A DNA stretch of 62,314 nucleotides from Acholeplasmataceae bacterium. GTDB lineage: Bacteria > Bacillota > Negativicutes > Acidaminococcales > Acidaminococcaceae. The notes below the pieces were generated by a model. That model ran no database searches and had not been told where the DNA came from. It was given only the letters and a program-made list of their open reading frames with translations. This document shows, piece by piece, positions 2,899 through 51,763 of the stretch (within the stretch, counting starts at the first letter, position 1; each line of letters opens with the position of its first letter). Position numbers and translations under genes: made by a program. Location: positions 1 to 62,314 of the forward strand of contig JAAYVM010000136.1 of NCBI GenBank assembly GCA_012517145.1, given 5' to 3'.

Positions 2899-5058
2899 TT
2901 GGATAATAATGATGGTGACCTACAAAATGATAGCAAACTGCAAGAATTGCCGCTTGAATTGCTTGAAGGGTATTTCCCTACTCATTTTAGTGAAGGCAAA
3001 ACAACAAGTATAATAAAATTCAACATCAATACCCAAAGGTTATTACTAAAAATATTCTATAATTTCACTAAGATTACTGATGATAAAATTGATAGTCTGA
3101 TAAATATTACACTAAAAGGTATCTGTGAAATATATGATGCTGATCGCTGCAATATATTCAGGGTTTCCGAGGACGGAACCAAGATGTGCAGAACTTATAC
3201 CTGGCAGCAAGAAGGACTTGGAGAGGATTTTCATAATTTAAAATATGGCGAAAAAGAAACATTTCCGTGGGGAAGGAACAAACTCTCAAATTTGGAAATT
3301 ATTAATATCAGTAGTTTAAAGGAAATGCCCGAAGAAGCTGCCAAAGAGCGAGAAATATTAAGAAACTGTGGTATTAAGTCGATAGTTAGCGTACCGATAG
3401 CCTGTAATGATAATTTATTGGGATGTATCGCTTTTGATTCCCTTAGATACGAGAGAAAATGGTCGAAGGAGATAATAGCGGTTTTAACGATTCTTGCTGA
3501 TATTTTTGGCAGTGCTTTTAAAAGGAAGGCACAAATTGAAGAATTGGAACAATTAGAAAAATATTATCATACGGTTTTTGAGAATACGGGCTTGCCAGCA
3601 TTTATTATCGGTGAAAATATGGAAGTCTTGCAGTCCAGCATGAATTGGGAAGGAATTTTTGGCTATTCACGCAAAGAATTAGAAGGTAAAAACTGGTTGG
3701 AATGTTTACCTAAAGAAGAAATAGAGAAAATCAAAAATTATCATTATGCACGACGTGAGGAACATAATGATGCTCCTCAAAAATATACAGCTCATGTCAT
3801 AGACAAATTTGGCCGTGTGAAGGATTGTCTGCTCAACGTATCATTAATTCCTGGTACAAAAAATTCTGCTGTTACTGTCTCTGATATTACGCAATACAAT
3901 AGGATAGGGCGAGCTTTAAAAGTTACAACAGCTATAAATACCGCACAATTGCATGCTGAAAATGAACAGACACTATTAGAAAACGTCTGCCAAAAAATTG
4001 TCGATATAGGGCGTTATCGCTTTGCCTGGATTGGTTACATCACTAGTGGTGAGCAGCAAACAATGATGCCTGTCGCACATGCCGGTTTCGAGGATGGTTA
4101 CCTCAGCCTGCTAAAAATCAATTGTAAACGAATGATAAATTTTGATGATTACTATACTCCTAACCAGATAGGAAAACCTTATGTTTGCCGCAATATAGAG
4201 AAAGATTCGGACTTCCCGCCATGGAAGGAAGAGGCCTTGAAGCGGGGGTATAAAGCCTTTATATGTATTCCTTTAAACCTTGGTGGAGAATCTGAACGAG
4301 CAATACTGGTTATATATTCTGGTGACGAGGATGTTTTTGATAAAGAAGAGGTTACACTTATCAAAGAAACTGCAGATGATCTTGTTTTTGGTATTAAATA
4401 TTTGCGCAATCGTATTGCCAGAGCTAAAACAGCAGAGAAGCTGGAAAACAGTTTGCAACAAAAGGACAGTTTGCTACTGGAAATAGTAGATGCGCTTGCT
4501 GCTTCCGTCGAAGCAAAGGATCCTTATACTGCTGGCCATCAAAAAAGAGTAGGTGCATTGGCCGGTGCGATTGCCCAAAAAATGGAATTGGCTCCGGATG
4601 ATGTAAAGGGCATTGGCATTGCCGGTACTATTCATGATATCGGCAAGATTCAAATACCGGGAGAAATTTTGTGCAAGCCACGCAAACTGCTTCACGAAGA
4701 ATTTAACCTTATCAAAACCCATAGCCAGGCAGGTTATGATATAATCAAAAATATTGAGTTTCCTTATCCCGTTGCGGATGTTGTACTGCAGCACCATGAA
4801 AGGCTTGACGGTTCCGGTTATCCACAAAGTTTATGTGGAGATGAGATTTTATTAGGAGCACAGATTGTAGCAGTAGCTGATGTAGTAGAAGCGATATCTT
4901 CTTACAGACCATACCGGCCGGCACTCGGTATTAATAAGGCACTGGAAGAAATAGAGAGGTTAAAAGGCATTCAGTTTGATGCGCAGGTGGTTGAAGCCTG
5001 CCTAAGTCTTTTTAAAGATGATGGCTTCCAGCTTTTCGGAGATTGTAAAAATAAGTAA
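2899..5058 (+). CDS. GAF-PAS-GAF-HD-GYP signalling protein, probable cyclic-di-GMP phosphodiesterase
   Basis: A cytoplasmic sensor-output protein of 719 residues. I place the start at TTG 2899 because GGGGGG lies 8 nt upstream. An in-frame ATG at 2806 exists but has no ribosome site and would add an unlikely Cys-rich leader. Order: GAF (about 40-215), PAS (220-335), second GAF (345-525), short coiled linker, HD-GYP (540-700). The catalytic signature is intact: HDIGK near residue 577 and HHERLDGSGYP near 631, as in enzymes that hydrolyse c-di-GMP. There are no membrane segments, so the signal is probably soluble. It is transcribed alone and shares a bidirectional terminator with the PII gene. 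The ligands of the GAF and PAS domains are unknown. Confidence 0.85.
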   Translation: MDNNDGDLQNDSKLQELPLELLEGYFPTHFSEGKTTSIIKFNINTQRLLLKIFYNFTKITDDKIDSLINITLKGICEIYDADRCNIFRVSEDGTKMCRTYTWQQEGLGEDFHNLKYGEKETFPWGRNKLSNLEIINISSLKEMPEEAAKEREILRNCGIKSIVSVPIACNDNLLGCIAFDSLRYERKWSKEIIAVLTILADIFGSAFKRKAQIEELEQLEKYYHTVFENTGLPAFIIGENMEVLQSSMNWEGIFGYSRKELEGKNWLECLPKEEIEKIKNYHYARREEHNDAPQKYTAHVIDKFGRVKDCLLNVSLIPGTKNSAVTVSDITQYNRIGRALKVTTAINTAQLHAENEQTLLENVCQKIVDIGRYRFAWIGYITSGEQQTMMPVAHAGFEDGYLSLLKINCKRMINFDDYYTPNQIGKPYVCRNIEKDSDFPPWKEEALKRGYKAFICIPLNLGGESERAILVIYSGDEDVFDKEEVTLIKETADDLVFGIKYLRNRIARAKTAEKLENSLQQKDSLLLEIVDALAASVEAKDPYTAGHQKRVGALAGAIAQKMELAPDDVKGIGIAGTIHDIGKIQIPGEILCKPRKLLHEEFNLIKTHSQAGYDIIKNIEFPYPVADVVLQHHERLDGSGYPQSLCGDEILLGAQIVAVADVVEAISSYRPYRPALGINKALEEIERLKGIQFDAQVVEACLSLFKDDGFQLFGDCKNK

Positions 5059-12227: not shown

Positions 12228-13460
12228 TTATTTTGAAGCCAAAATTTTTAGCGCACCATCTAAAACTTGCGTTGCTTTTTCGATGGCCGGCCACTCAGAT
12301 AATTCCAAAGGTGAATGGCTGATGCCGTTGATGCTGGGTACGAAGATCATAGCGGTCGGCATATGGCGGCCGATGATCATGGCATCATGACCAGCCCAGC
12401 TGGGCAGTATTTGATACTCGATGCCAAGACCTTCGCTGGCAGCTGCAATTACTTTGATTAATTCTTCATCCATAGGCATAGGGGCCAAGTTGTTTTCTGC
12501 AATTGTTTCTATCGTAACTTTATATTGTGTACTGACTTGTGTGTATTTGCGCATAATTTTTTCTTTAACTGCTTCTACTGTAGCCATATCAGCGGAACGT
12601 ATTTCAATGGTCATTTGCACTTTGCCGGGGATAACATTTTCGGCATTAGGGAAAACATCCAATTTGCCGACAGTTGCAACATAACTGCCGCCTGAGGCAA
12701 GCGCGTCTTCATAAATTTGCGAAATAAGAGATGATGCGGCAACCAAAGCATCCTGCCGTCTGTGCATAGCGGTGCTGCCTGCATGGTTTGCTTTGCCGCA
12801 GATGGTGATGGTAAGGCGTTTGATGCCTACTATTGCTGAGACTATGCCGACACTATGACCACTTTCGTCTAAGGTGGCTCCTTGTTCAATGTGCAGTTCA
12901 ATAAAAGAGGCGCTCTTCTTTAAGGCACTAGCCTCATTAAAGGAAGCAAAATCAAGATTACAATTGGTAAGAAGTTCAGGGAGCGTGTGACCGTCACTTG
13001 TTTTGAAGTCTGTAAGTTCAATACATTGAAGTTCACCTGTCATAGCCCGGCTTCCTAAACAGCCGCTGCCAAAGAGGGTGCCTTCTTCTTCGACAAAGGC
13101 GATCACTTTCACGGGCCTTAGCGGCTGCCAATTTTCTTCGTGCCAGCTGCGTATGCATTCCAGAGCGGTGACAATGCCCAAAGCACCATCAAACATTCCA
13201 CCGTTAGGCACACTGTCCAGGTGGGAACCGCAGCAGACAGGCGGTAAGGAATTATCACGTCCTGGATAGGTGCCGATGAGGTTACCAATGGCATCAATAT
13301 CAACTTTCATACCGATATTTGTCATAAATTCAGACAGCATTGTCTGTGCCGCCAGAAATTCTGATGAATAAGATATTCTGGTCAGCCCGCCTTCATTGTT
13401 TTTGCCGAAGGCGGCAAGTTTTGTGAAAAGGAGTTCTAATTTTGCTAAGCTGATGCTCAT
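12228..13460 (-). CDS. M20 family Zn hydrolase, N-carbamoyl-L-amino acid hydrolase / allantoate amidohydrolase type
   Basis: A 410-residue cytoplasmic amidohydrolase. Di-metal ligands are in place: CGSHLDSVPNGGMFDGALG, the acid pair in FVEEEGTLFGSGCLGSRAM, ELHIEQGATLDESG, and GISHSPLE at the end; NHAGSTAMHRRQDAL marks the dimerisation region. This subfamily cleaves N-carbamoyl-amino acids, allantoate or ureidoglycolate, releasing CO2 and ammonia. It is transcribed after the IclR gene with a 14-bp gap. The divergent operon contains an ATC-hydrolase-family gene. In the Pseudomonas thiazoline pathway the N-carbamoyl product is hydrolysed by an enzyme of this kind (AtcC), so that role is possible here but not shown. 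Confidence 0.85.
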   Translation of the reverse strand: MSISLAKLELLFTKLAAFGKNNEGGLTRISYSSEFLAAQTMLSEFMTNIGMKVDIDAIGNLIGTYPGRDNSLPPVCCGSHLDSVPNGGMFDGALGIVTALECIRSWHEENWQPLRPVKVIAFVEEEGTLFGSGCLGSRAMTGELQCIELTDFKTSDGHTLPELLTNCNLDFASFNEASALKKSASFIELHIEQGATLDESGHSVGIVSAIVGIKRLTITICGKANHAGSTAMHRRQDALVAASSLISQIYEDALASGGSYVATVGKLDVFPNAENVIPGKVQMTIEIRSADMATVEAVKEKIMRKYTQVSTQYKVTIETIAENNLAPMPMDEELIKVIAAASEGLGIEYQILPSWAGHDAMIIGRHMPTAMIFVPSINGISHSPLELSEWPAIEKATQVLDGALKILASK

Positions 13461-13474
13461 TTTAAAACCTTCTT

Positions 13475-14263
13475 TTAACCTTTATTTTTCTGGATATTGC
13501 AAAAATTGTCAGAAACAGTAGCCGCAATATTTTTGAGATCGATAAGAAGACTATCTCTGATGGCTGGCAGACTATGCACAAAGAACGTGGCACTGACAGT
13601 GGCAATTAATTGGTTACTGAGATCAAAGATCGGTACCGCCATACTGCCTACGCCGAGAGCAAATTCTTCTAATTCGCAGGCATATTTATTTCTGCGTACT
13701 TCCTCGAGATTAGCTTTTAAAGTTTCGGCATCCATGATAGTACGCGGTGTGAATTGCTTGAATTCAAGATTATCAAAGGCATTTTCATCATTGTCATAGA
13801 GATTATACAGCATCAGCAGCTTGCCGGAAGAAGTGGCATATTTCGGCAAAATTGAGTACTCGGACAGAATGATATAGTAAGCAGTGTTGATAGGATAAGC
13901 GCAATAGATGGAATAGATCTGATTCTGGTTGACCATCTGCAAGCTGGCAGAAATGTGATACTTGTTTGCTATGGCATCAACCAGGCCTTTGGACATGGTG
14001 ATGTAGCTTTCCACCTGCTTCTGGATGACGTTAGCCTTGCCCATAAAATAGAAGCCCAAGCTATAGATGTTATTTGTTTTGTCGTGAATCAAAAGGCCGT
14101 TAGCAGTCAGTGTATTGATTAACCCGCGGGTCGTATTGATGTTTAAATCAACACGCTGGCTTATTTCATTAAGGGATAGACGCGGTGAAGCGTCTGTAAA
14201 GCAATTAAGAATATCGATGGACCTTTGGACCGATTGGATTAATTTAACCGATTGTTTTTCCAT
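13475..14263 (-). CDS. IclR family transcriptional regulator
   Basis: A 262-residue regulator. The N-terminal winged helix reads SIDILNCFTDASPRLSLNEISQR followed by the recognition helix LNINTTRGLINTL. The C-terminal IclR effector domain contains the conserved stretch EEFALGVGSMAVPIFD. It is the first gene of a two-gene unit with the M20 hydrolase. It diverges from livK, whose promoter is covered by palindromes (14341-14396), so it most likely controls both directions in response to the transported compound. Confidence 0.9.
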   Translation of the reverse strand: MEKQSVKLIQSVQRSIDILNCFTDASPRLSLNEISQRVDLNINTTRGLINTLTANGLLIHDKTNNIYSLGFYFMGKANVIQKQVESYITMSKGLVDAIANKYHISASLQMVNQNQIYSIYCAYPINTAYYIILSEYSILPKYATSSGKLLMLYNLYDNDENAFDNLEFKQFTPRTIMDAETLKANLEEVRRNKYACELEEFALGVGSMAVPIFDLSNQLIATVSATFFVHSLPAIRDSLLIDLKNIAATVSDNFCNIQKNKG

Positions 14264-14396: not shown

Positions 14397-14481
14397 AACG
14401 GTCGGAGGTGCAAAGGAAAAGCGGAATAAAAATTTATAACGGCTTAAACAAAACCAAACATTTATGGAGGGGAATAAAATT

Positions 14482-15609
14482 ATGAAAAAATCTTTGGCAA
14501 CAGTACTTTCAGGTTTTATGTTAGTTGGTTCTTTGTTTGCATTTGGCTGCGGTTCTGCTAAATCCGATGTTATTAAAGTTGGTGTGGCTGTACCTTTGAC
14601 TGGCGCGAGCGCTGAAGACGGCAATGCTATTAAAAACGGTGTCAATCTTGCGGTAAAAGAAATTAATGCCAAGGGCGGCATTAATAATAAAAAAGTTGAA
14701 CTTGTAATTACAGATGATAAAGGTGATCCTTCGGAAGCAGCTACTGTTGCTAACAAATTGGCTCAGGACAAGAGTGTCCTGGCTATCGTAGGTCATTTCA
14801 ACAGTTCCTGCACACTTGCAGCTGCTCCTATCTATAACCAAGCCGGTGTAGTAAGCGTATCACCGGGTTCCAGCGCTGCCGCAGTTACTAAAGCCGGCCC
14901 TTATACTTTCCGTGTTATCACGACTGATGCTGTACAAGGCGCTTCCCTGATGGATTGGGCTGTTAAAGACCTTGGTTACAAGAATATCGCTGTTCTTTAT
15001 GAAAACACTGATTATGGTACAGGCTTGGCTGAGGTTGTTACTAAAACTGCCGGCAAATTGAATGCAAAAATCGTTGCTGAAGAAGCATATGAAGTAGGCG
15101 CTACTGATTTCAGCACAGCTTTGACAAAGGTTGCTAACAGCAAAGCTGACGTTATTATTGTCGGTGGTCTCTACAATGAAACAGCTTTGATTGCTAAACA
15201 AAAGAATAACTTTGGCCTGGAAAAAATGCAGATCATGGGCGTTGATGCCATTTACTCCGATGCTTTGTTGAAACTCGGTGGTGCTGCAGCTGAAGGTATC
15301 AAGATGACTGGTTATTTCTCTGAAGTAAGCAAGGATCCTGTATCTCAAAACTTTGTTGCTAAATACAATGAAGAGTACAAAAAAGCTCCAAGCACATATG
15401 CTGCTTATGGCTACGATGCTGCTCTCGTAATTTTTGAATCCATTAAAAATGGTGGTACTGACCGTAAAGCTATCTGCGATTTCATGACTAAACTTAAAGG
15501 CCTGAAAGGTGCAACCGGCGTTAATACCTTTGATGAAAATGGCGATGTAATTAAACAACCTTTGCGTCTGATCATTAAAGACGGCAAATTTGTTGTTACT
15601 GAGAAATAA
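14482..15609 (+). CDS. livK: ABC transporter substrate-binding lipoprotein, LivK type
   Basis: A 375-residue lipoprotein that captures the solute outside the membrane for LivHMGF. I set the start at ATG 14482 behind GGAGGGG. The signal peptide ends in a lipobox-like AFGC, with Cys near residue 23. The mature protein begins IKVGVAVPLTGASAEDG and continues with EINAKGGINNKKVELVI, the standard Leu/Ile/Val-binding fold. The binding-pocket motif SPGSSAAAVTKAGPYTFRV is present. LivK relatives bind branched-chain amino acids, amides, urea or aromatic acids. The neighbouring amidohydrolases make a ureido- or guanidino-compound plausible. Confidence 0.9.
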   Translation: MKKSLATVLSGFMLVGSLFAFGCGSAKSDVIKVGVAVPLTGASAEDGNAIKNGVNLAVKEINAKGGINNKKVELVITDDKGDPSEAATVANKLAQDKSVLAIVGHFNSSCTLAAAPIYNQAGVVSVSPGSSAAAVTKAGPYTFRVITTDAVQGASLMDWAVKDLGYKNIAVLYENTDYGTGLAEVVTKTAGKLNAKIVAEEAYEVGATDFSTALTKVANSKADVIIVGGLYNETALIAKQKNNFGLEKMQIMGVDAIYSDALLKLGGAAAEGIKMTGYFSEVSKDPVSQNFVAKYNEEYKKAPSTYAAYGYDAALVIFESIKNGGTDRKAICDFMTKLKGLKGATGVNTFDENGDVIKQPLRLIIKDGKFVVTEK

Positions 15610-15642
15610 GATAGTTAGTTAAAAGGGGGCTTCTGCATCTTT

Positions 15643-16515
15643 TTGCAACAAATGATTAACGGTATCACCGTTGGCGGGAGTTACGCCCTGATAGCCCTTG
15701 GCTACACAATGGTTTATGGAATTTTAAGAATAGTAAATTTTGCCCATGGTGATGTCTTTATGATGGGATCGTTCTTTGGGTTGTTCTGTATGCAGTTTTT
15801 GGGGATGCCATATTATGTGGCATTCCCAATTGCCGCCATTGCTACTGCTATCATGGGTATTATCATGGAAAGAATCGCTTATCGTCCAATCCGTACCGCG
15901 GATAGTTTAACGGTTATGATAAGTGCTTTGGGCGTATCTACTTTTTTAGGAAATCTTGCCATGGTGCTGTGGGGATCAGGCACACATGCTTTCAGCGGTT
16001 TCAGTGGTATTACTGTTTCTGTTTATAAATTCGATAACGTAGTTTTATCCAATATCCAGATAGGATTCATCGTACTATCTGTTTTATTGATGATGGCTTT
16101 GTATTTTATTGTTAACAAAACTAAAATTGGTATCGCCATGCGCGCAACTTCTCATAATATCAAGACGGCTAAGCTTATGGGTATTAATACCGACCGGATT
16201 ATTTCTTTTACCTTTGGTATTGGCTCGGCTTTGGCTTGTGTTGCAGGTCTGCTTGTCGGTATTTATTATGATGCCGTTTATCCTCTGATTGGTTACTCCT
16301 ATGGCTTAAAAGCTTTCGCGGCCGCTGTTTTAGGTGGTATCGGCAGCATCCCGGGTGCTATGTTGGGCGGCTTTGTGATGGGTATCGTGGAAACTCTCGG
16401 TGCCTCCTACATTTCAGCCGGCTATAGAGATGCTTTTGCTTTCGCTATTTTGATTATTGTGCTTATTTTCCGTCCAGCAGGTATTTTGGGCAAAAAGGAA
16501 ATTGATAAGGTATAA
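15643..16515 (+). CDS. livH: ABC transporter permease, LivH type
   Basis: A 290-residue inner-membrane permease. It begins at TTG 15643 (MQQMINGITVGGSYALIALG, the standard LivH N-terminus), with AAGGGGG upstream at a rather long 13-nt spacing; ATG 15652 is the alternative. The hallmark GYTMVYGILRIVNFAHGDVF and the ATPase-contact loop RATSHNIKTAKLMGINTDRI are present. It is the second gene of the liv operon, 33 bp after livK. Confidence 0.92.
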   Translation: MQQMINGITVGGSYALIALGYTMVYGILRIVNFAHGDVFMMGSFFGLFCMQFLGMPYYVAFPIAAIATAIMGIIMERIAYRPIRTADSLTVMISALGVSTFLGNLAMVLWGSGTHAFSGFSGITVSVYKFDNVVLSNIQIGFIVLSVLLMMALYFIVNKTKIGIAMRATSHNIKTAKLMGINTDRIISFTFGIGSALACVAGLLVGIYYDAVYPLIGYSYGLKAFAAAVLGGIGSIPGAMLGGFVMGIVETLGASYISAGYRDAFAFAILIIVLIFRPAGILGKKEIDKV

Positions 16516-16577
16516 AAATTCCGGAACACAGAAATTGCGGAAATCAATTTTATACCAGTCATTGGATGGAGGACAGA

Positions 16578-17573
16578 ATGAATAGGAAAATACAGCAATT
16601 TGTTTTTGAACATAAAAAAGTGGTAATACCAATCGCAGCCTTAATTTTCTTGGGTTTGCCGTTCTTTGTTACCAATAGTTATTTTTTACATATACTTATC
16701 ATGGTTTGCATCTACATTTGCCTGGCGTTGAGTCTCAACCTCGTCACCGGCTACGCCGGACAACTGGTTTTGGGCCATGCCGCTTTTTATGGCATTGGTG
16801 CCTATGCCGGTGCTTTATTGATGCTGAAACTGCATGTCAATTTCTTCGCAGCGTTGCTTTTAAGTGCGGCAATCACCGGATTTTTTGGCTTTCTGCTTGG
16901 TATGCCGGCACTCAGACTGCGCGGAGACTATTTGGCGATAGTTACCTTGGGTTTTGGTGAGATCGTGCGTCTTGTCTTCGTCAACTGGAAAGGTCTTACG
17001 CGCGGACCGGCAGGTTTGCCTGGTATTCCTTCGCCGCAAATCTTTGGCTTTGCAATCAGCGGTCGTACGGAGTTTTATTATCTCGCCTTGATTCTTGCCT
17101 TGTTTACCATATTCTTTATGGTCAAACTGATTAATTCCGGTGTTGGCATGGCTATGCAGACCGTAAAAAATGATGAAATTGCGGCGGAAGCCATCGGCAT
17201 CCAACCGCGCAAGTACAAAATAATGGCTTTTGTAATTTCCTCGGCTTTTGCCGGCATGATAGGATGCTTCTTTGCTTCCTATCTCAGCTATATCAGCCCA
17301 ACTGCTTTTGTTTATAATACTTCGATGACGATTCTTACTATGGTTGTTCTGGGCGGCTTAGGCAGCATCATGGGTTCTGTCCTGGGTGCCTCCATCCTGG
17401 TCATTGTACCGGAAATGCTGAGATTTCTGAATGATTATCGGATGCTTATATTCGGTGCCTTGATGGTATTCATGATGATTTTCAAACCTGAAGGTTTCTG
17501 GGGCGCAGGCAAGAGGCGCAGAAATATTTACAAGATTAATTCGGAGGTACCGGACCATGGCTCAAATTCTTAA
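16578..17573 (+). CDS. livM: ABC transporter permease, LivM type
   Basis: A 331-residue inner-membrane permease. The start ATG 16578 follows GGAGGA. The signatures ALSLNLVTGYAGQLVLGHAA, PALRLRGDYLAIVTLGFGEI and the loop AEAIGIQPRKYKIMAF are those of LivM. Its last 17 bp overlap livG. With LivH it forms the translocation pore. Confidence 0.92.
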   Translation: MNRKIQQFVFEHKKVVIPIAALIFLGLPFFVTNSYFLHILIMVCIYICLALSLNLVTGYAGQLVLGHAAFYGIGAYAGALLMLKLHVNFFAALLLSAAITGFFGFLLGMPALRLRGDYLAIVTLGFGEIVRLVFVNWKGLTRGPAGLPGIPSPQIFGFAISGRTEFYYLALILALFTIFFMVKLINSGVGMAMQTVKNDEIAAEAIGIQPRKYKIMAFVISSAFAGMIGCFFASYLSYISPTAFVYNTSMTILTMVVLGGLGSIMGSVLGASILVIVPEMLRFLNDYRMLIFGALMVFMMIFKPEGFWGAGKRRRNIYKINSEVPDHGSNS

Positions 17574-18339
17574 TACCGTCAACGTTACCATGCAATTTGC
17601 CGGTCTGACTGCGGTTGATAATGTAAATATCGATCAAAAAGAAGGCGAAATATTAGCCTTGATTGGGCCGAACGGTGCCGGAAAAACCACTTTGTTCAAT
17701 ATGCTGACAGGTGTTTATAAACCGACTTCCGGTGAAATCTTTTATAAAGGTGAGAACATCACCGGACTCCGACCTTTTCAGCTGGTAAGAAAAGGCATTA
17801 CAAGGACTTTTCAGAATATCCGATTGTTCAAAGATATGACAACCTTGGAAAATCTTTTGGTAGCCAGTCCCGATTGTAAGGATGAGAATATACTGGCAGC
17901 AGTATTTGGCGGTCGCAGCCTGCGTCAAAAACGTGGTCTTGTTGTGGAGCAATGCGAGAGCATTTTGGAAATACTGAAGCTGCAGGATAAACTGGAAGAA
18001 CTGGCCTGCAATCTTCCTTATGGCAAACAGCGTCTCTTGGAAATAGGCAGAGCGCTCGCTACAGGCGCTGACTATCTGCTGCTCGATGAACCTGGTGCCG
18101 GCATGAACAGCATGGAAAAGGAAGAACTTGCACAGGTAATTCGTTATCTTACCAAAGAAATGCATAAAAACATTTTGTTAATAGAACATGATATGCCATT
18201 TGTCATGGGCATTTCAGACCGCATAGTTGTACTGGACCATGGCGTAAAAATTGCCGAAGGCCTGCCTAGCGAAATTCAGAATAACCAACAGGTAATTGAA
18301 GCTTACCTGGGCAAGGGCATTCCTGAAGATGATGACTAG
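17557..18339 (+). CDS. livG: ABC transporter ATPase, LivG type
   Basis: A 260-residue cytoplasmic ATPase. Walker A GPNGAGKTT, the Q-loop in GITRTFQNIRLF, Walker B YLLLDEPGAGM and the switch histidine in LLIEHDM are all intact. The signature loop reads LPYGKQRLLEIGRAL, the usual LivG variant of LSGGQ. It overlaps livM and precedes livF by 33 bp. Confidence 0.93.
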   Translation: MAQILNTVNVTMQFAGLTAVDNVNIDQKEGEILALIGPNGAGKTTLFNMLTGVYKPTSGEIFYKGENITGLRPFQLVRKGITRTFQNIRLFKDMTTLENLLVASPDCKDENILAAVFGGRSLRQKRGLVVEQCESILEILKLQDKLEELACNLPYGKQRLLEIGRALATGADYLLLDEPGAGMNSMEKEELAQVIRYLTKEMHKNILLIEHDMPFVMGISDRIVVLDHGVKIAEGLPSEIQNNQQVIEAYLGKGIPEDDD

Positions 18340-18372
18340 GCAGTGAATCAGTGAAAAATAGGATGTGAAAAG

Positions 18373-19092
18373 ATGGCACTACTGGAAATAAAGGATTTAC
18401 AAGTTAAATATGGCGTTATTCCGGCTCTGAAAGGTATCTCCTTTGAAGTGGAGCTGGGAGAGGCAGTAGCTATTATCGGTGCCAATGGTGCCGGTAAAAC
18501 AACGACATTGCACGCTATTTCTGGTATAGCAGACAAATGCGGCGGCCAAGTGTTTTTTAACGGAGAAGATATTACCAAGATGCCTGCCCACAAAATCGTG
18601 TCTCGCGGTATTTCACAGGTACAGGAAGGAAGGGGTGTCTTCCCCAATTTGTCGGTTGCAGAGAATCTGTCTCTGGGGGCTTATTTGCGCAATGACAAAG
18701 CTGAGATTGCCAAAGACTATGAATTTGTGTATGAGGTGTTCCCAAGACTCCTGGAAAGACAGAAACAGATGGCTGGTACCTTGTCGGGCGGCGAGCAGCA
18801 GATGCTGGCTATCGGCAGGTCACTGATGGCCAGACCGAAATTGCTGCTTCTGGATGAACCTTCTATGGGCCTGTCACCGCTGATTACGGAAAATATTTTT
18901 AAAACTATTAAGAAGCTCAATAAAGAAAGACAGATGACTATTCTGGTAGTCGAACAAAATGCCCAGATGGCTTTGTGGGTTTCTCACCGTACCTATATTA
19001 TGGAAACCGGCAATATTGTTTATGGCGGTGCGTCCAAAGAATTAAAAAATCAGGATTTTATCCGAAAATCATATTTGGGACAGAAAGACTGA
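18373..19092 (+). CDS. livF: ABC transporter ATPase, LivF type
   Basis: A 239-residue ATPase pairing with LivG. Walker A GANGAGKTTT, the LivF-specific stretch SQVQEGRGVFPNLSVAENL, the signature LSGGEQQMLAIGRSL and Walker B LLLLDEPSMGLSP are intact. The next gene starts 15 bp after its stop, so the hydrolase-like gene belongs to the transport operon. Confidence 0.94.
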   Translation: MALLEIKDLQVKYGVIPALKGISFEVELGEAVAIIGANGAGKTTTLHAISGIADKCGGQVFFNGEDITKMPAHKIVSRGISQVQEGRGVFPNLSVAENLSLGAYLRNDKAEIAKDYEFVYEVFPRLLERQKQMAGTLSGGEQQMLAIGRSLMARPKLLLLDEPSMGLSPLITENIFKTIKKLNKERQMTILVVEQNAQMALWVSHRTYIMETGNIVYGGASKELKNQDFIRKSYLGQKD

Positions 19093-19107: not shown

Positions 19108-19578
19108 ATGGAAGATCAGAAAATGAAGGAACCTGTTTCCATGTTTGTTTTGTTTGCCAGGATGTTCTCTATTACGGCAAAAAACTTAGAAAAAGAGTTT
19201 GGCGAGAAAGGTTTGGAAGTTCTTGCTGAGTCTGTACGCGAATTCGGGATGGCACGCGGGCGTGATATTGCTGAACGCGCCAAAGCCAATGGCGAAGATA
19301 ATTCTTTGCATAACTATTTGAAGAACTACGACATGGAGCGTAGTGACTTATTCGGTTATACGAATGAATATACACCTGATGAAATACACCAGGAGTTTAC
19401 TCGTTGCGTTTTCGCTGAAACCTGGATGGCAGCCGATGAAGAAAAGTACGGCAGAATTTACTGCGAAAATATAGATCCGGCGATTGCTGCCGGTTTTAAT
19501 AAAGACATGGAATGCATTCATGACGAAATTATGTATAAGGACAAACGCTGTACCTTCTGCTTCAGAATGAAAAAATAG
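19108..19578 (+). CDS. L-2-amino-thiazoline-4-carboxylate hydrolase family protein
   Basis: A 156-residue soluble protein. The helical N-terminal half (LAESVREFGMARGRDIAERA) and the C-terminal signature (TRCVFAETWMAADE, YGRIYCENIDPAI, then CIHDEI and CTFCF) match the ATC-hydrolase family as I know it. The founding member opens the thiazoline ring of L-ATC to give N-carbamoyl-cysteine. Homologues are widespread in gut Firmicutes and mostly uncharacterised. It lies 15 bp behind livF and 104 bp before the ureohydrolase-like gene. An M20 carbamoylase, the next enzyme in the ATC pathway, is encoded in the divergent unit. Family assignment is good; the substrate is open. Confidence 0.75.
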   Translation: MEDQKMKEPVSMFVLFARMFSITAKNLEKEFGEKGLEVLAESVREFGMARGRDIAERAKANGEDNSLHNYLKNYDMERSDLFGYTNEYTPDEIHQEFTRCVFAETWMAADEEKYGRIYCENIDPAIAAGFNKDMECIHDEIMYKDKRCTFCFRMKK

Positions 19579-19681: not shown

Positions 19682-20662
19682 ATGGAGACCAGACCAGTGA
19701 TTTATGATCCTGTTGGGAAACCAAGAGAGATTTACAGCGGTGTGCCAACGTTTCTCGGCTTGCCGATTGCTAAAACAAAAGAGGAATTAAAAGAGTACGA
19801 TTTTGCAGTTTTGGGAGTGCCTTGGGAGGGCGGCTGCACAATTGGCGGCTATTCTTCCGTTGTCCTGGCACCTAAGGCTATCCGTTCCGTGTCTATCAGA
19901 TACAGCGGCTACCTGCCTGATTATGATGTTGATACTTTTGATGCTTTAGCGGGCTGTGATTATGGTGATACCGTCGTGCAAAATGGTAATTACGACCTCA
20001 CCTTTGATTCTATCAGAGAAAAATATAACGATCTTATTGAAGCCGGTCAGATTCCAATCGTTTTTGGCGGCGACCATTCGATTGCCTATCCTTTGATTCA
20101 GACTTTGGCAAAAAAACATAAGAAAAGAGTAGGCGTCATTCATTTTGATGCTCATCTGGATAACTATCCTGCATTTGGCGATGACCCGTATTCCAGATGT
20201 TCTCCGTTTAACCGTCTTTACCAGGATGAAAATATGGATCCGACAAAGATCGTGCATGTCGGTATTCGCGGTGCCAGAAACCATCCGCAGGAACGTAAGG
20301 AAGCCAAAAAATACGGTGCAACCGTTATTACTGCCAAAGAAATCAAAGAGACCGGTTACATGGCAGCTGTCAAAAAGGCTTTGGAAATTGCCCAGAAGGA
20401 TACTGACGTCCTTTATGTCACTATTTGTTCTGATGTTCTGGACGGAGCTTCTAATCCTCAGGGACCAATTGATCCTTGCGGCCTGACTTCTTTTGAACTG
20501 TCCATGATGGTCAATGAATGTGCCTATGCGGGTGCTAATTCCTTCGATTTTGTAGAAATTTACCCGGAAACCTGCGGGGCACATATTTCTGCACACATGG
20601 GAACTTGCCTGGCCTTGTACTTCTTAAACGGTATAGCCAGAAAGCGTCTAGAAACAAAATAA
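19682..20662 (+). CDS. Atypical ureohydrolase (agmatinase/arginase family) with changed active-site residues
   Basis: A 326-residue protein of the arginase fold. The start ATG 19682 follows AAAGGTGAT. Metal motifs GGDHS (about 129-133) and HFDAHLDN (about 155-162) are intact, and the late acid in FVEIYP is kept. Two positions differ from arginase and agmatinase. The S-x-D-x-D motif reads TICSDVLD, so the first metal-bridging aspartate is Cys249 while Asp251 remains. The catalytic SHG motif reads SRC, with Arg172 where a histidine is expected. Classical enzymes use two Mn or Ni ions to release urea from guanidines. This one may use one metal, act on another C-N bond, or be non-catalytic. Confidence 0.8.
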   Translation: METRPVIYDPVGKPREIYSGVPTFLGLPIAKTKEELKEYDFAVLGVPWEGGCTIGGYSSVVLAPKAIRSVSIRYSGYLPDYDVDTFDALAGCDYGDTVVQNGNYDLTFDSIREKYNDLIEAGQIPIVFGGDHSIAYPLIQTLAKKHKKRVGVIHFDAHLDNYPAFGDDPYSRCSPFNRLYQDENMDPTKIVHVGIRGARNHPQERKEAKKYGATVITAKEIKETGYMAAVKKALEIAQKDTDVLYVTICSDVLDGASNPQGPIDPCGLTSFELSMMVNECAYAGANSFDFVEIYPETCGAHISAHMGTCLALYFLNGIARKRLETK

Positions 20663-20675
20663 TACTAATAAATAA

Positions 20676-20719
20676 AAAACTGCTGTTTGGCGAAAAAATC
20701 GCCAAACAGCAGTTTTTTT
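20676..20719 (+). terminator. Terminator of the liv/ureohydrolase operon
   Basis: AAACTGCTGTTTGGCGA pairs with TCGCCAAACAGCAGTTT around an A-rich loop and is followed by TTTTTTT. Confidence 0.92.
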
Positions 20720-46745: not shown

Positions 46746-47870
46746 ATGGATAAATCAAAGGTTTATTTTACAGATTTTCGTGTAGGATTGGGAACGAATC
46801 TATTGCAGAAGCTGCAGAAACTTTGCAAGGTAGCAGGAATCAAGAATATTGATATGGATGGAAAATTTGTAGCCATTAAAATGCATTTTGGCGAGCTCGG
46901 CAATATGGCCTTTTTGCGTCCTAATTATGCTAAGGCTATCGCAGACCTAGTTAAAGAACAAGGCGGTCTGCCATTTCTTACAGATTGCAATACACTTTAT
47001 CCGGGTAGCCGTAAACATGCTTTGGAGCATATGGACTGTGCAAATATCAACGGTTTTAATACAACGACGACAGGATGCCAGATTATCATAGGTGACGGCT
47101 TAAGGGGGACAGATGAAGTTTCGATTCCGGTGAAGAACGGCGAATATGTTAAGGAGGCCAAGATTGGCCGCGCCATCATGGATGCAGATGTATTTATCAG
47201 TCTCGCCCACTTCAAGGGTCATGAAATGACTGGATTTGGTGGTGCTATAAAAAATATCGGTATGGGCTGCGGCAGTCGTGCTGGCAAGATGGAGCAGCAT
47301 TCATCAGGCAAGCCGGATATTCATGAAGAACTTTGCCGTGGCTGTCGCCGCTGTGGAAGAGAATGCGGTTCAAATGCAATAACCTACGAAAATAATAAAG
47401 CAAAGATTAATCAGGATCTCTGTAAAGGTTGTGGCCGTTGCATAGGTGCTTGTGCTTATGATGCAGTCTATAATCCGCAGTGGGATGCAGGCGATCTTCT
47501 GGATCGGAAAATGGCAGAATATGCTCAGGCTGTGTGCCAGAACCGTCCATGTTTCCATATTAATCTTGCTATGGATATATCACCAAATTGTGACTGCCAT
47601 GGTGAAAATGATGCTGCGATTCTGCCGAATATTGGCATGTTTGCTTCTTTTGACCCGGTAGCTTTAGACCAGGCTTGTGTAGATGCCTGTCAACAGCAAG
47701 AGCCAATGCCAAACAGCCAGCTTTCAGATAACCTGGCAAAACCAGATTGGGAGCATTACCATGATCATTTCATGGATAGTAATCCGAATGTGCATTGGAA
47801 AGAAACACTGGAGCATGCAGAGAAAATTGGCATGGGAACACGTGAATACGAGCTGGTAAAACTTAAATAA
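46746..47870 (+). CDS. DUF362 protein with two inserted [4Fe-4S] clusters
   Basis: A 374-residue cytosolic iron-sulfur protein. The DUF362 fold is seen in KMHFGELGNMAFLRPNYAKA, LTDCNTLYPGSRKHA and SLAHFKGHEMTGFGGAIKNI. Between its halves (about 195-260) lies a two-cluster ferredoxin: C-x2-C-x2-C-x3-C in CRGCRRCGREC and again in CKGCGRCIGAC. The function of this family is not established; redox chemistry is likely. It is driven by MerR-type promoter 4. A paralogue lacking the ferredoxin insert lies at 51764-52756 in the same regulon. Confidence 0.85.
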   Translation: MDKSKVYFTDFRVGLGTNLLQKLQKLCKVAGIKNIDMDGKFVAIKMHFGELGNMAFLRPNYAKAIADLVKEQGGLPFLTDCNTLYPGSRKHALEHMDCANINGFNTTTTGCQIIIGDGLRGTDEVSIPVKNGEYVKEAKIGRAIMDADVFISLAHFKGHEMTGFGGAIKNIGMGCGSRAGKMEQHSSGKPDIHEELCRGCRRCGRECGSNAITYENNKAKINQDLCKGCGRCIGACAYDAVYNPQWDAGDLLDRKMAEYAQAVCQNRPCFHINLAMDISPNCDCHGENDAAILPNIGMFASFDPVALDQACVDACQQQEPMPNSQLSDNLAKPDWEHYHDHFMDSNPNVHWKETLEHAEKIGMGTREYELVKLK

Positions 47871-47970
47871 GCTCGATTTACTGAACTGAATAAGTCGTTA
47901 CGCGTACGTATTCATAAAAAAGCTTTTATTGTTGCCTTAAAACATAATCGTAATTGCCACAATACATATG

Positions 47971-48045
47971 CTTATTTTTCAGAAGTTTACTGAGCCGGTA
48001 TTTTATAAGCAGAAGCTAAACCGAAATTAGATAATGAGTGATATT
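47971..48045 (+). pseudogene. Remnant of a second merR 3' end
   Basis: The last codons match the end of the merR gene in frame: L-stop-AEAKPKLDNE-stop here against RQAEANLKLDNK-stop at 46566-46601. An internal TAA at 48010-48012 and the loss of everything upstream show decay. The homology continues without a gap through the following terminator; I count 49 of 60 identical bases between 46581-46640 and 48021-48080. It marks a duplication of merR 3' end, terminator and promoter. Confidence 0.75.
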
Positions 48046-48046
48046 T

Positions 48047-48081
48047 ATACCGACCTGGAGTAAAATCCAGGTCGGTTTTTT
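48047..48081 (+). terminator. Duplicated terminator before the flavodoxin promoter
   Basis: ACCGACCTGGA (48049-48059) pairs with TCCAGGTCGGT (48066-48076), followed by TTTTTT. It is the copy of the merR terminator and now ends transcripts from the DUF362 gene. Confidence 0.85.
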
Positions 48082-48091
48082 ATAAAATAAG

Positions 48092-48123
48092 CTTGACTTC
48101 GAGTTAGCTCCAGATGATATTCT
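48092..48123 (+). promoter_or_regulatory. MerR-type promoter/operator 5 (before the anchored flavodoxin)
   Basis: TTGACT at 48093-48098, 19 bp, TATTCT at 48118-48123, with GAGT-TA-GCTC in the spacer. Confidence 0.8.
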
Positions 48124-48166
48124 CAGTTTGTACATAAAAATCATTTAGGAAAGGAGAAGAATTTTG

Positions 48167-48814
48167 ATGAGGAAAAAATTCATATTATATGTTTTATGCA
48201 TAATCTGTTTTTTATTAATGATATCCTTCGCTTTAATCGCTTATGCTAAAACCTGCAGTACAGCTATCAATGCTAAGAATTACAAAGCTGAAATGCAAAT
48301 GCTGAATGATTTTATTGACAAAGAACAGCAGGTCAGGAAGGCCGATAAGACATTAATTGTTTATTATTCTTATACGGATGACACGCGCAAACTTGCTAAT
48401 ATGATTCATGAAAAAATAGGCGGTGATATCTTGGAAATTCAGCCGTTGGAACTTTATCCTGATGACTATAATGCAGCTTATGCGCAAGGGCGTAAAGAAG
48501 TCGAAGAACGCATCAAACCCCAACTCAATAATAATTTCAAGGATATTTCTGAGTACGGTACTATCTACTTAGGCTCGCCAATTTGGTTCGGAACTATTGC
48601 CCCGCCGGTTGCCAGTTTTCTTTATGGGCAGAGTTTGGCCGGCAAAACAATTATCCCGTTCTGTACTTATGACGGCTTAGGCGCTGGACAAAGCATCGAA
48701 GAAATTGCTCATCTTAGTCCTAATGCCAGGGTTACCGAAGGTTTTGCCGTTAAACGCACGGAAGTCGAAAAATCGCGGGAAGCACTTGCTAAATGGTTAA
48801 AAAGAATAGATTAA
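48167..48814 (+). CDS. Membrane-anchored flavodoxin
   Basis: A 215-residue protein, start ATG 48167 (a TTG directly before it is in frame) behind AAAGGAGA. An N-terminal helix (FILYVLCIICFLLMISFALI) anchors it with the flavodoxin domain outside. The FMN loop is VYYSYTDDTRKLA, then GSPIWFGTIAPPVASFL and PFCTYDGLGAGQS. It is a diverged homologue of the lipid-anchored flavodoxin at 45514 and has its own MerR-type promoter. Two surface flavodoxins in one regulon suggest an extracytoplasmic electron-transfer or flavin-based detoxification role. Confidence 0.86.
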   Translation: MRKKFILYVLCIICFLLMISFALIAYAKTCSTAINAKNYKAEMQMLNDFIDKEQQVRKADKTLIVYYSYTDDTRKLANMIHEKIGGDILEIQPLELYPDDYNAAYAQGRKEVEERIKPQLNNNFKDISEYGTIYLGSPIWFGTIAPPVASFLYGQSLAGKTIIPFCTYDGLGAGQSIEEIAHLSPNARVTEGFAVKRTEVEKSREALAKWLKRID

Positions 48815-48919
48815 CAATAAAGGAAGTTAAATGAATAAAAATTTTGTAATTGGCAGGTATCTTTTTAGTAATAAAGACTTATAAAAATTAATATAAATCT
48901 GTAAGAAGGAGAGATAAAA

Positions 48920-49336
48920 ATGAATAATTTAAGTGAAAGCGTAATTTTTAGCAAAGGCGGCAAAATGCCGGAACCATATAATCAATACTTTGTTGGACAA
49001 GCTTATCTGCAAATGTTGGTAGCTGGGGACAAGGAGTTTAACTGCCCTATTGGCAATGTAACATTTGAACCGGGGTGCCGTAACAATTGGCATAGGCATC
49101 CGGGTGGCCAGATTCTTTTAGTTACAGGCGGCCGTGGATGGTATCAGGAAGAAGGGAAAGAAGCTCGTGAACTCAAGGCTGGCGATGTGGTAAAGATTCC
49201 GGCAAATGTGAAACATTGGCATGGCGCCGCAAAAGACAGTTGGTTTGTACATCTTTCTGTGGAAACCAATGCCCAGGCAGGTCCTGCAGAGTGGTTTGAA
49301 CCAGTTAATGAAGAAGAGTACAATAAGCTGAAATAA
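48920..49336 (+). CDS. Small cupin protein
   Basis: A 138-residue single-domain beta-barrel protein. Cupin motif 1 reads CRNNWHRHPGGQILLVTGG (His-x-His and Gln in place of Glu) and motif 2 reads AGDVVKIPANVKHWHGA. It is likely metal-binding. It is close to cupins encoded beside aldo/keto reductases and flavodoxins in anaerobes. It lies 105 bp behind the flavodoxin with a good ribosome site (AAGGAGAG) and no terminator between, so it is probably co-transcribed from promoter 5. Confidence 0.83.
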   Translation: MNNLSESVIFSKGGKMPEPYNQYFVGQAYLQMLVAGDKEFNCPIGNVTFEPGCRNNWHRHPGGQILLVTGGRGWYQEEGKEARELKAGDVVKIPANVKHWHGAAKDSWFVHLSVETNAQAGPAEWFEPVNEEEYNKLK

Positions 49337-49523
49337 TAAATGTATTGGTTTGCATGATCTCCAACGACACGGTAAAAAATAGGATATTAACAAATCCCAA
49401 TTTATATATAAATTGGGATTTCCTAATTTTTGCAAGTAGTATGAGTAAAAGGGCAAAAGCTTTATAATATATGTAGATATGATTTACGTATCCTAAAAAT
49501 GACAATAAAGATAGGTGAGTGTC

Positions 49524-50594
49524 TTGAAAAAATATATTGAAAGCATAGATTTGCTTAGAGGTATTTGCCTTATATTGATGGTTTTCATCAATTTTTTTGA
49601 TGAAATTGCCGATGTCAGCATCCTGGAATCAAAGCAGGGTTTTCACATTGACTTTTTTGTTACCTCGATGGTGCCTAACGTTTTTATGACACTGATGGGT
49701 TTTCTGCTTATTCTGAGTAATGGCTACAAAGCTAAACATGTTTTCGAGAAAGCAATTAAGATTTTATTTATTGGCTTCGCGGTCAACCTCATTCGCGTTC
49801 CGCTTCCACAACTAATCGGCAATCGCTTGGGTATTACTGAATATGGTGACTTGCTTGGCAATGCCATTTACCACTTGACCATGATTGATATCTATTCGTT
49901 TGCCGGGTATGCCTTGCTGACGATAATACCTTTGACGTTCTTTAATTTTCCCTATCAAGTTTATTTTGTCTTCAGCGGCTTGGCAATGATGCTTACCAGC
50001 TTCGGGGATGAGATACTCGACTGGCTGCCCCTGGAACTGGAGTTTGTTTTTGGCTATCTTTTCATTGGTGAGGAAAAGAATGTCTACTTCCCTCTCTTAC
50101 CATGGCTTTCATATATTTTCCTGGGGATTGGCCTCGGACTTTTTTATTTAAAACATGGCAAGGATTTGTTGTACAAATTGTTAGCGGTTGTAGGGCCGGT
50201 ACTCTTAGGTATTGGTTATACCATTTTCAAATCGAACTACGATTTTAACAAGGGTTTTTCTATGCTGAATGATTTTTATCAGCATGATTATACTGTCGGC
50301 ATTTATTTGATTGGCATGGCAATGCTATTGATCTTTTTGGCGGATATATCTTTGCCAAAATTGCCGAAGTTTGTTAAAATGCACCTTGCTTTTACTAGCC
50401 GTAACATCATGAAATTCTATTTTTTCAGCTGGATATATACAGGGTGGTTTGTGACTTTGCGCGGCTACAACAATGACTTTAGCGTGGAGGAATGCATTCT
50501 TGGTGCAGTTGTTATTTATCTTCTTTCATATATTAGTTCGATTGTCCTGGTAAGACTTCTGTCAGTTGGCTCGGATGGAGAAAAAAAGGGTTAA
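49524..50594 (+). CDS. Polytopic membrane protein, acyltransferase-like (heparan-acetyltransferase/DUF1624 type N-terminus)
   Basis: A 356-residue protein with about ten helices. I take TTG 49524 as start because AGGTGA lies 6 nt before; GTG 49515 is possible. The start ESIDLLRGICLILMVFINFF matches the membrane acyltransferase pattern SxDxLRGxxxxxMVxxN found in DUF1624/DUF5009 proteins. The rest has few charged residues and no recognised catalytic set. It may transfer acyl groups to surface glycans, but this is weak inference. It is a single gene. Confidence 0.7.
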   Translation: MKKYIESIDLLRGICLILMVFINFFDEIADVSILESKQGFHIDFFVTSMVPNVFMTLMGFLLILSNGYKAKHVFEKAIKILFIGFAVNLIRVPLPQLIGNRLGITEYGDLLGNAIYHLTMIDIYSFAGYALLTIIPLTFFNFPYQVYFVFSGLAMMLTSFGDEILDWLPLELEFVFGYLFIGEEKNVYFPLLPWLSYIFLGIGLGLFYLKHGKDLLYKLLAVVGPVLLGIGYTIFKSNYDFNKGFSMLNDFYQHDYTVGIYLIGMAMLLIFLADISLPKLPKFVKMHLAFTSRNIMKFYFFSWIYTGWFVTLRGYNNDFSVEECILGAVVIYLLSYISSIVLVRLLSVGSDGEKKG

Positions 50595-50619
50595 GGCAAT
50601 AGATTTTTATAATCTGCCC

Positions 50620-50648
50620 TTGACTTTTCGTAAAATTCATACTAAAAT
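50620..50648 (+). promoter_or_regulatory. Sigma-A promoter before larE
   Basis: TTGACT at 50620-50625, 17 bp, TAAAAT at 50643-50648. There is no palindrome in the spacer, so it is unlike the six MerR-type promoters nearby. Confidence 0.7.
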
Positions 50649-50777
50649 ACTATAGATTAAACATCAATATTATATAAGGAAAGATATCATCAAAATTATT
50701 TACAGAGGAATCAATATTTAATAGTGATCAGATGCTTTGGCAAGAGTAATGTAATAGATGATTATGAGGTACTAAAA

Positions 50778-51593
50778 ATGACTATAGAAAGAGCACAAAA
50801 ACTAAAAGATTATTTACAAGAGTTAGAGAGTGTCGTGGTAGCTTTTTCCGGCGGCGTAGACAGTTCTTTTCTGGCGGCTGCTGCTTATAAGGCTCTTGGC
50901 GACAAGGCGGTAGCAGTTACGGCAGTTTCTGAAACTCTCTCCGAAACGGAGAAAATGGAGGCGCGTAAGACAGCGGCTGCCATTGGTATCAAGCATGAAG
51001 AACTTTGGATCAGCGAATTGGAGGATTCTGATTTTGTAGCGAACAATGGCGACCGCTGCTACCACTGCAAGCATACACGTTTCAGCGCCTTGATTGCTTG
51101 GGCGCAGGAACACGGATATAAATGGGTAATCGATGGTTCTAATGTAGACGACCTGTGTGACTATCGTCCGGGTATGAAAGCCATTAAGGAATTGGAGGGT
51201 GTCTGCAGTCCTTTGCTGGAGAATGGTTTGGGTAAAGAAGATATCCGCAGTTTATCCAAGGTATGGGGATTGCCAACCTGGAATAAACTCAGTATGCCCT
51301 GCTTGTCTTCACGTATTGCTTATGGAGAAAAAATTACACCTGAGAGATTGCGTCAGGTAGAACAAGCGGAAGAAATCATTCGCAAATATGTCAAAGGTCC
51401 TGTGCGTGTTCGCCATCATGGTGTTCTGGCCAGAATCGAAGTTGATGCGCAGTCGCTGGGCATTCTGGTGATACCTGAAGTGTCAGCATATATTAATAAA
51501 GCAATCAGAGATTTAGGTTTTAAATATGTTACTTTGGATATGGGCGGCTACAAGACAGGCAGCCTGAATCAAGAATTGGAAAATATAAATTAA
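50778..51593 (+). CDS. larE: LarE family ATP-dependent sulfur transferase
   Basis: A 271-residue PP-loop enzyme, start ATG 50778 behind GAGGT. The ATP loop is VVAFSGGVDSSFLAAAA. LarE inserts sulfur into the nickel-pincer cofactor precursor (pyridinium biscarboxylate). Cysteines appear in DRCYHCKHTRFS and in MPCLSSRIAYGEKITPE. The three-cysteine set is that of the [4Fe-4S]-type LarE, as in Thermotoga, which reloads sulfur instead of sacrificing its own cysteine. LarB and LarC are not in this window, so the target could also be another pathway. It ends at a terminator (51620-51657). Confidence 0.87.
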   Translation: MTIERAQKLKDYLQELESVVVAFSGGVDSSFLAAAAYKALGDKAVAVTAVSETLSETEKMEARKTAAAIGIKHEELWISELEDSDFVANNGDRCYHCKHTRFSALIAWAQEHGYKWVIDGSNVDDLCDYRPGMKAIKELEGVCSPLLENGLGKEDIRSLSKVWGLPTWNKLSMPCLSSRIAYGEKITPERLRQVEQAEEIIRKYVKGPVRVRHHGVLARIEVDAQSLGILVIPEVSAYINKAIRDLGFKYVTLDMGGYKTGSLNQELENIN

Positions 51594-51619
51594 GTGCAAA
51601 AATAAATATGTGTTTTATG

Positions 51620-51657
51620 TTCGCCTGGACGTAAAGTTCAGGCGAATTTTCTTTTTA
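51620..51657 (+). terminator. Terminator after larE
   Basis: TTCGCCTGGAC (51620-51630) pairs with GTTCAGGCGAA (51636-51646), with one G-T pair and TTTTCTTTTTA after it. Confidence 0.85.
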
Positions 51658-51700
51658 TTGGAGTCGAACAGAGCAGGTATATATTTACTCGTTTCAAAAG

Positions 51701-51732
51701 CTTGACTTGTAGTTAACTCCAAGGAATAGAAT
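51701..51732 (+). promoter_or_regulatory. MerR-type promoter/operator 6 (before the second DUF362 gene)
   Basis: TTGACT at 51702-51707, 19 bp, TAGAAT at 51727-51732. The spacer carries CTTGTAGT-TA-ACTCCAAG. Confidence 0.82.
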
Positions 51733-51763
51733 GTAAATAATTAAATCTTGGAGGCGTATTTTG

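Follow-up and report, generated by a model that had tools for sequence, protein, structure and literature searches.

A conserved clade of ureohydrolase-type proteins with a cysteine at the position of the metal-bridging aspartate

Proteins that carry a cysteine (Cys249) in place of the metal-bridging aspartate, together with an arginine (Arg172) in place of the histidine of the SHG motif, constitute an old, conserved and monophyletic branch of the ureohydrolase superfamily. The member that we studied is encoded in the window, the 62,314-nucleotide stretch of DNA analyzed here (contig JAAYVM010000136.1 of the Acholeplasmataceae bacterium assembly GCA_012517145.1; Table 1). Judged by its sequence and its relatives, the window protein is neither an ordinary agmatinase nor an artefact, and the age and conservation of the clade and its link to an amino-acid-type importer make it probable that the protein functions as an enzyme, with altered metal use. 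We suggest, with moderate confidence, that it is an active metallohydrolase whose metal site includes a thiolate and that its substrate would be an amidino- or ureido-type amino-acid derivative.

Table 1. Positions of the genes, codons and signals discussed in the text, numbered from the first nucleotide of the window.
Feature	Position	Strand	Basis
M20 amidohydrolase of the hydantoinase/carbamoylase and allantoate-amidohydrolase group	12228..13460	-	NF006771, TIGR01879
IclR-family regulator, divergent from the importer operon	13475..14263	-	annotation; homologues in related loci
LivK-H-M-G-F, branched-chain-type amino-acid ABC importer	14464..19092	+	annotation; Liv beside most homologues
ATC_hydrolase-family protein (PF14196), adjoining the ureohydrolase gene	19108..19578	+	85.6 bits
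Ureohydrolase-superfamily protein of the Cys249/Arg172 clade, 326 aa	19682..20662	+	PF00491 and clade conservation
His132 codon, retained GGDH ligand	20075..20077	+	sequence reading and alignment A2
Asp156-Ala-His158-Leu-Asp160 codons, retained ligands	20147..20161	+	sequence reading and alignment A2
Arg172-Cys173 codons, replacing His-Gly of SHG	20195..20200	+	sequence reading; Arg invariant, Cys in all but one in A2
Cys249-Ser250-Asp251 codons (Cys for metal-bridging Asp, Asp251 retained)	20426..20434	+	sequence reading; Cys and Asp invariant in A2
Glu292 codon, counterpart of the guanidinium-binding Glu of arginase	20555..20557	+	invariant in A2 and A3
Hairpin followed by a T run, likely operon terminator	20680..20719	+	sequence reading

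Active-site residues of the window protein

The window protein matches the Pfam arginase family (PF00491) with 204 bits (E=4.2e-60; cut-off 22), and its alignment to solved ureohydrolases places Cys249 at the first Asp of the SxDxD motif and Arg172 on or beside the His of the SHG motif. An earlier note on this DNA had read TICSD in place of SxDxD and SRC in place of SHG, and had regarded the other metal motifs as intact. The codons for Arg172 (aga; 20195-20197), Cys173 (tgt; 20198-20200), Cys249 (tgt; 20426-20428) and Asp251 (gat; 20432-20434) read as that note described, and five of the six His/Asp metal ligands (His132, Asp156, His158, Asp160 and Asp251) are indeed kept, the sixth being Cys249. 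In rat arginase, Asp232 forms a bridge between both metals, while two His and three other Asp ligands serve both metal positions of the enzyme. Cys249 occupies the position of Asp232, and Glu292 presumably fulfils the guanidinium-binding role of its arginase counterpart.

Conservation, phylogeny and distribution of the clade

Alignment A2 comprises the window protein and 25 relatives from several classes that are between 37 and 88% identical. Eight residues (Arg172, Cys249, Asp251, His132, Asp156, His158, Asp160 and Glu292) are invariant among these 26 proteins, Glu292 being invariant in alignment A3 as well, and Cys173 is found in all members but one, which has an Asn there. Close and distant relatives alike carry both the Arg and the Cys; hence, an absence of these changes from close homologues is excluded. 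Additional traits extend across the clade beside the cysteine: Trp48-Glu49-Gly50, Asn161, Arg196, Arg199-Asn200, Asp264, His305, and the loss of the GTGTPE loop. Position 249 is an Asp in 33 of the 33 distinct other arginase-family proteins inspected; a profile of the close relatives assigns at least 284 bits to the full-length Cys members and at most 184 bits to the 33 others. In maximum-likelihood trees, a branch with support values of 100/99 and 100/100 separates the 26 Cys members from the rest.

The gene is under purifying selection. When the window gene is compared with that of Sporomusa KB1, pN is 0.076 and pS is 0.75, and dN/dS ranges between 0.01 and 0.11 for the closer pairs. Because the active-site changes are conserved and pN lies far below pS, decay of the window gene or a sequencing error can be ruled out, a result that agrees with the earlier view that the gene is not simply decaying. 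The Sporomusa ovata copy is split by a frameshift (L009 8001-8973 and L038 8203-9220, both from one assembly), which could reflect a sequencing error or a real pseudogene. The window gene is 88% identical to its Sporomusa counterpart and 57-66% identical to the genes found in genomes of its own family; since it is thus closer to Sporomusa than to its own family, the gene cluster has probably been exchanged horizontally, or the contig has been misbinned.

Members of the clade are sparsely distributed. Of 300 genomes of the class, 11 (including that of the window) have a member, as do 3 of the 398 genomes in a phylum sample. When 84,980 species genomes were scanned with a pattern, nine close relatives emerged, including those of three Sporomusa species and of Clostridia MAGs, and more members came from profile searches of overlapping sets that covered about 1,100 genomes of the phylum. 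Beyond the Bacillota, the clade was searched for in genome contigs, with short patterns, and in plasmids; 233 plasmid records matched, all with less than 60% identity, and no plasmid-borne Cys member was found among them, as the examined ones keep the Asp.

Comparison with characterized ureohydrolases and the predicted fold

The window protein reaches none of the curated cut-offs of the specific family models: it scores 115.8 against 174.3 for agmatinase TIGR01230, 142.5 against 302 for agmatinase NF002564, 120.9 against 229.15 for formimidoylglutamase TIGR01227, and 72.3 against 227.6 for arginase TIGR01229. We therefore reject an assignment as an agmatinase, a HutG protein or an arginase.

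An AlphaFold2 model built from 41 sequences and without metals (pLDDT 93, pTM 0.93) exhibits the alpha/beta/alpha fold of the ureohydrolases, many structures of which match it with Z scores between 31 and 42; the structure comparison was also run with Foldseek. The top match is the guanidinase 9fek (Z 42.0, rmsd 1.9, 309 aligned residues), followed by the metformin hydrolase alpha subunit (8snf; Z 41.8) and guanidine hydrolase (7esr; Z 41.1), while guanidinopropionase and formimidoylglutamase match with Z scores of about 39. A sequence search of solved proteins found no structure near the clade.

The guanidine hydrolases (7esr, 9fek) and the metformin hydrolase alpha subunits (8snf, 8ryi) thus have the fold of the window protein (Z 41-42) at about 25% identity, and they also share the amidine-binding Glu and most ligands with it, but they carry an Asp where the window protein has Cys249. 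Metformin hydrolase and GdmH are Ni-dependent enzymes (PMC11399263). Among the immediate neighbors of the clade genes, for which only a few families were annotated, none of the nickel genes hypA, hypB and hupE was seen. The guanidinopropionase and guanidinobutyrase of Pseudomonas aeruginosa (3nip, 3nio) possess the same fold and provide a model for guanidino-acid chemistry; they differ through their intact SHG and SFDxD motifs and are 23-27% identical to the window protein. HutG (3m1r) has the same fold and likewise lacks the His of SHG, the Bacillus subtilis formimidoylglutamase aligning Asn-Gly there; however, it keeps the bridging Asp.

When the PDB was probed with an arginase peptide carrying a Cys at this position, the identical engineered sequence was found in 1p8s, beside an Ala variant (1p8n). 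The 1p8s structure is that of a rat arginase I Asp232-to-Cys variant, with the same substitution at the same position as Cys249, but the change is artificial and was made in a Mn arginase. The literature searched yielded no description of a natural ureohydrolase with a Cys ligand.

The best-scoring relative without the Cys (184 bits) is encoded on a Mesorhizobium ciceri plasmid (WP_063170520.1; locus L106). Like the clade members, it has an Arg at the SHG His and a GARGPRN motif. It carries TRASP, however, and its SLDID motif is intact, it falls outside the Cys clade, and it adjoins an amino-acid ABC importer of another type. The gene (3983-4993 of its locus) is labelled 'agmatinase family protein' and lies next to a second SpeB gene and this importer. 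The Arg-for-His change, on which the earlier note had also relied, is present and invariant in the clade but is less diagnostic than had been thought: because the Asp-keeping Mesorhizobium protein has it too, and because formimidoylglutamase lacks that His, the Arg is ruled out as the defining trait and Cys249 is the diagnostic change.

Gene neighborhood

The genes of the window are arranged in the order given in Table 1: the minus strand carries those for the M20 enzyme and the IclR regulator, and the plus strand carries LivK-H-M-G-F followed by the genes of the PF14196 protein and the ureohydrolase, with the hairpin last. The closest solved relatives of LivK bind amino acids, and the glutamate of its GGxxxE motif is retained. 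The M20 protein surpasses the cut-offs of NF006771 (441.9 bits; cut-off 399) and TIGR01879 (393; cut-off 204). Elsewhere in the window, the segment 20952-23889 encodes a rusticyanin-like cupredoxin (E=2e-31 for TIGR03095, under the cut-off) and then a P-type ATPase with a His/Met-rich N-terminus, and 46746-52756 encodes two DUF362-like iron-sulfur-type proteins near a LarE-like protein (50724-51593); the ATPase, the DUF362-like and the LarE-like assignments come from reading the sequence alone.

A branched-chain-type amino-acid importer is the usual neighbor of the clade genes; an IclR regulator, an M20 carbamoylase and an ATC_hydrolase-family protein are often encoded there too. The gene set and its order in Sporomusa are the same as in the window. 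Rearranged versions in which Liv genes are present, with or without the PF14196 and IclR genes, occur in the Clostridia (L003, L004, L006, L007, L008) and likewise in four additional genomes (G153, G210, G326, G559; loci L034, L033, L035, L037). In a more distant class (G656), Liv genes lie beside or near the ureohydrolase gene, and the other partners are OCD-family, SolA-like and Tdh/Kbl proteins. The partners other than Liv thus differ between classes. A single locus (L005) is devoid of Liv genes; its neighbors encode an ATP-grasp protein, AsnA and an ammonium transporter. None of the loci examined has a second ureohydrolase gene linked to it, and the one other arginase-family member of the window's own genome is distant and lies elsewhere.

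In genomes of the window's family, an Nramp-family (PF01566) permease takes the place of the Liv importer between the IclR and ureohydrolase genes (L028 9954-11219 and its equivalents in L030, L031 and L032; the family assignment was tested against Pfam in two of these four). In the one permease whose sequence was read completely, the DPGN and MPHN motifs of metal transporters are replaced by GPGT and VPYN, a change that matches 'orphan' Nramp relatives outside the metal carriers. A role as a metal supplier is therefore disfavored and, with these motifs lost, an organic solute may be the cargo of both types of importer. Among the 59 genomes of the window's family, 6 have the ureohydrolase gene, and exactly these 6 also have a strongly scoring PF14196 gene (more than 80 bits), a coincidence expected by chance once in 45 million when kinship is ignored.

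The linkage of the PF14196 and M20 genes is a feature that would be expected of an ATC utilization pathway, and the pair presumably resembles the route from 2-aminothiazoline-4-carboxylate to cysteine. The enzyme name of the PF14196 protein rests, as we understand it, on few characterized members. Its predicted fold matches V4R/TRAPP proteins, at 11-14% identity in the best rows; consequently, we place less reliance on that name. The ATC_hydrolase family has three invariant cysteines (Cys100, Cys119, Cys148). The window's own genome contains a second PF14196 gene (L081; G000:C177:1-7847) together with LivM-G-F, RidA-family and SDH_alpha-family proteins, an arrangement that suggests a related importer-linked amino-acid pathway, and at L008 an M20/SDH_alpha pair lies near the cluster. 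These SDH_alpha links would be compatible with, although no proof of, a serine- or cysteine-like product. Support for a creatine/guanidinoacetate route was looked for in Sporomusa and not found.

Proposed function and alternative explanations

In the reaction that we envision, Cys249 would act as a thiolate metal ligand, either bridging or terminal, and would shift the preference of the site from Mn2+ towards thiophilic ions such as Fe2+, Zn2+, Co2+ or Ni2+. The earlier note had expected that a change of the bridging residue would alter the number or type of metals and the reaction, which is a reasonable prediction. Arg172 and the GPRN residues Arg196, Arg199 and Asn200 could bind an acidic group near the bond that is cleaved, and Glu292 would still hold an amidine-like group. 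The substrate, which the linked importer would supply, would accordingly carry such a group on an amino-acid skeleton; N-amidino amino acids and cyclic amidines, for example a 2-aminothiazoline, would be candidates. Its hydrolysis would give either the amino acid directly or an N-carbamoyl amino acid, the conversion of which would be completed by the linked M20 enzyme, so that the products would enter the carbamoylase step or general amino-acid catabolism. Only tentatively do we go further and propose a thiolate at the bridging position that holds a metal pair or a single metal, an Arg that stands in for the proton-shuttle His, and a hydrolysis new to the superfamily that acts on an amidine or isothiourea amino-acid derivative.

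Cys249, or Cys173, might instead be a catalytic nucleophile, joined covalently to the substrate in a thiouronium-type intermediate; the enzyme would then hold at most one metal and would convert an N-amidino into an N-carbamoyl amino acid for the M20 enzyme. Such an intermediate occurs in the unrelated arginine deiminase superfamily, two conserved cysteines do lie in active-site motifs, and a carbamoyl product would suit the linked carbamoylase. Nevertheless, the five remaining ligands are invariant and point to a real metal site, Cys173 is an Asn in one member, and we know of no precedent for covalent Cys catalysis in the ureohydrolase fold; we regard this explanation as unlikely. To the same degree improbable is a mononuclear site that lost one ion along with the bridging Asp and performs ordinary amidine hydrolysis with a single metal: one bridging ligand is substituted and the superfamily shows ligand variation, yet every clade member keeps both His and all three other Asp, the residues that serve both metal positions of arginase.

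That the local substitution is harmless and the protein an ordinary agmatinase, guanidinobutyrase or HutG would fit with the shared fold, the E-values, and the hydrolysis of guanidines by the nearest solved proteins. We nonetheless doubt this rather strongly, as all curated cut-offs are missed and the Cys and Arg are fixed together throughout a deep clade, whose members share many further changes, among them the lost GTGTPE loop. The poorest candidate, in our view, is a non-catalytic family member with a structural or regulatory task. The beta subunits of metformin hydrolase set a precedent for it, since they are degenerate and the conserved metal residues are present in the alpha subunits only (PMC11399263). 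Across the clade, however, the amidine-binding Glu and all but one of the six ligands are invariant, and the window protein has neither a linked second ureohydrolase nor, in its own genome, any but a distant, unlinked relative.

Significance

Binuclear ureohydrolases are textbook Mn enzymes and, more recently, Ni enzymes. As far as we could find, an exchange of the bridging Asp for Cys in arginase has been made in the laboratory only, in the variant represented by 1p8s; here, the same swap has been fixed by evolution across a deep clade with a conserved gene neighborhood. The clade therefore offers a ready set of proteins for testing how the swap of one ligand redirects metal choice and chemistry. 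Its members are probably misnamed, because family resemblance says agmatinase, yet the window protein fails every specific model. Solving the function of one member would name a catabolic pathway for a nitrogen compound in anaerobes, including faecal and acetogenic bacteria.
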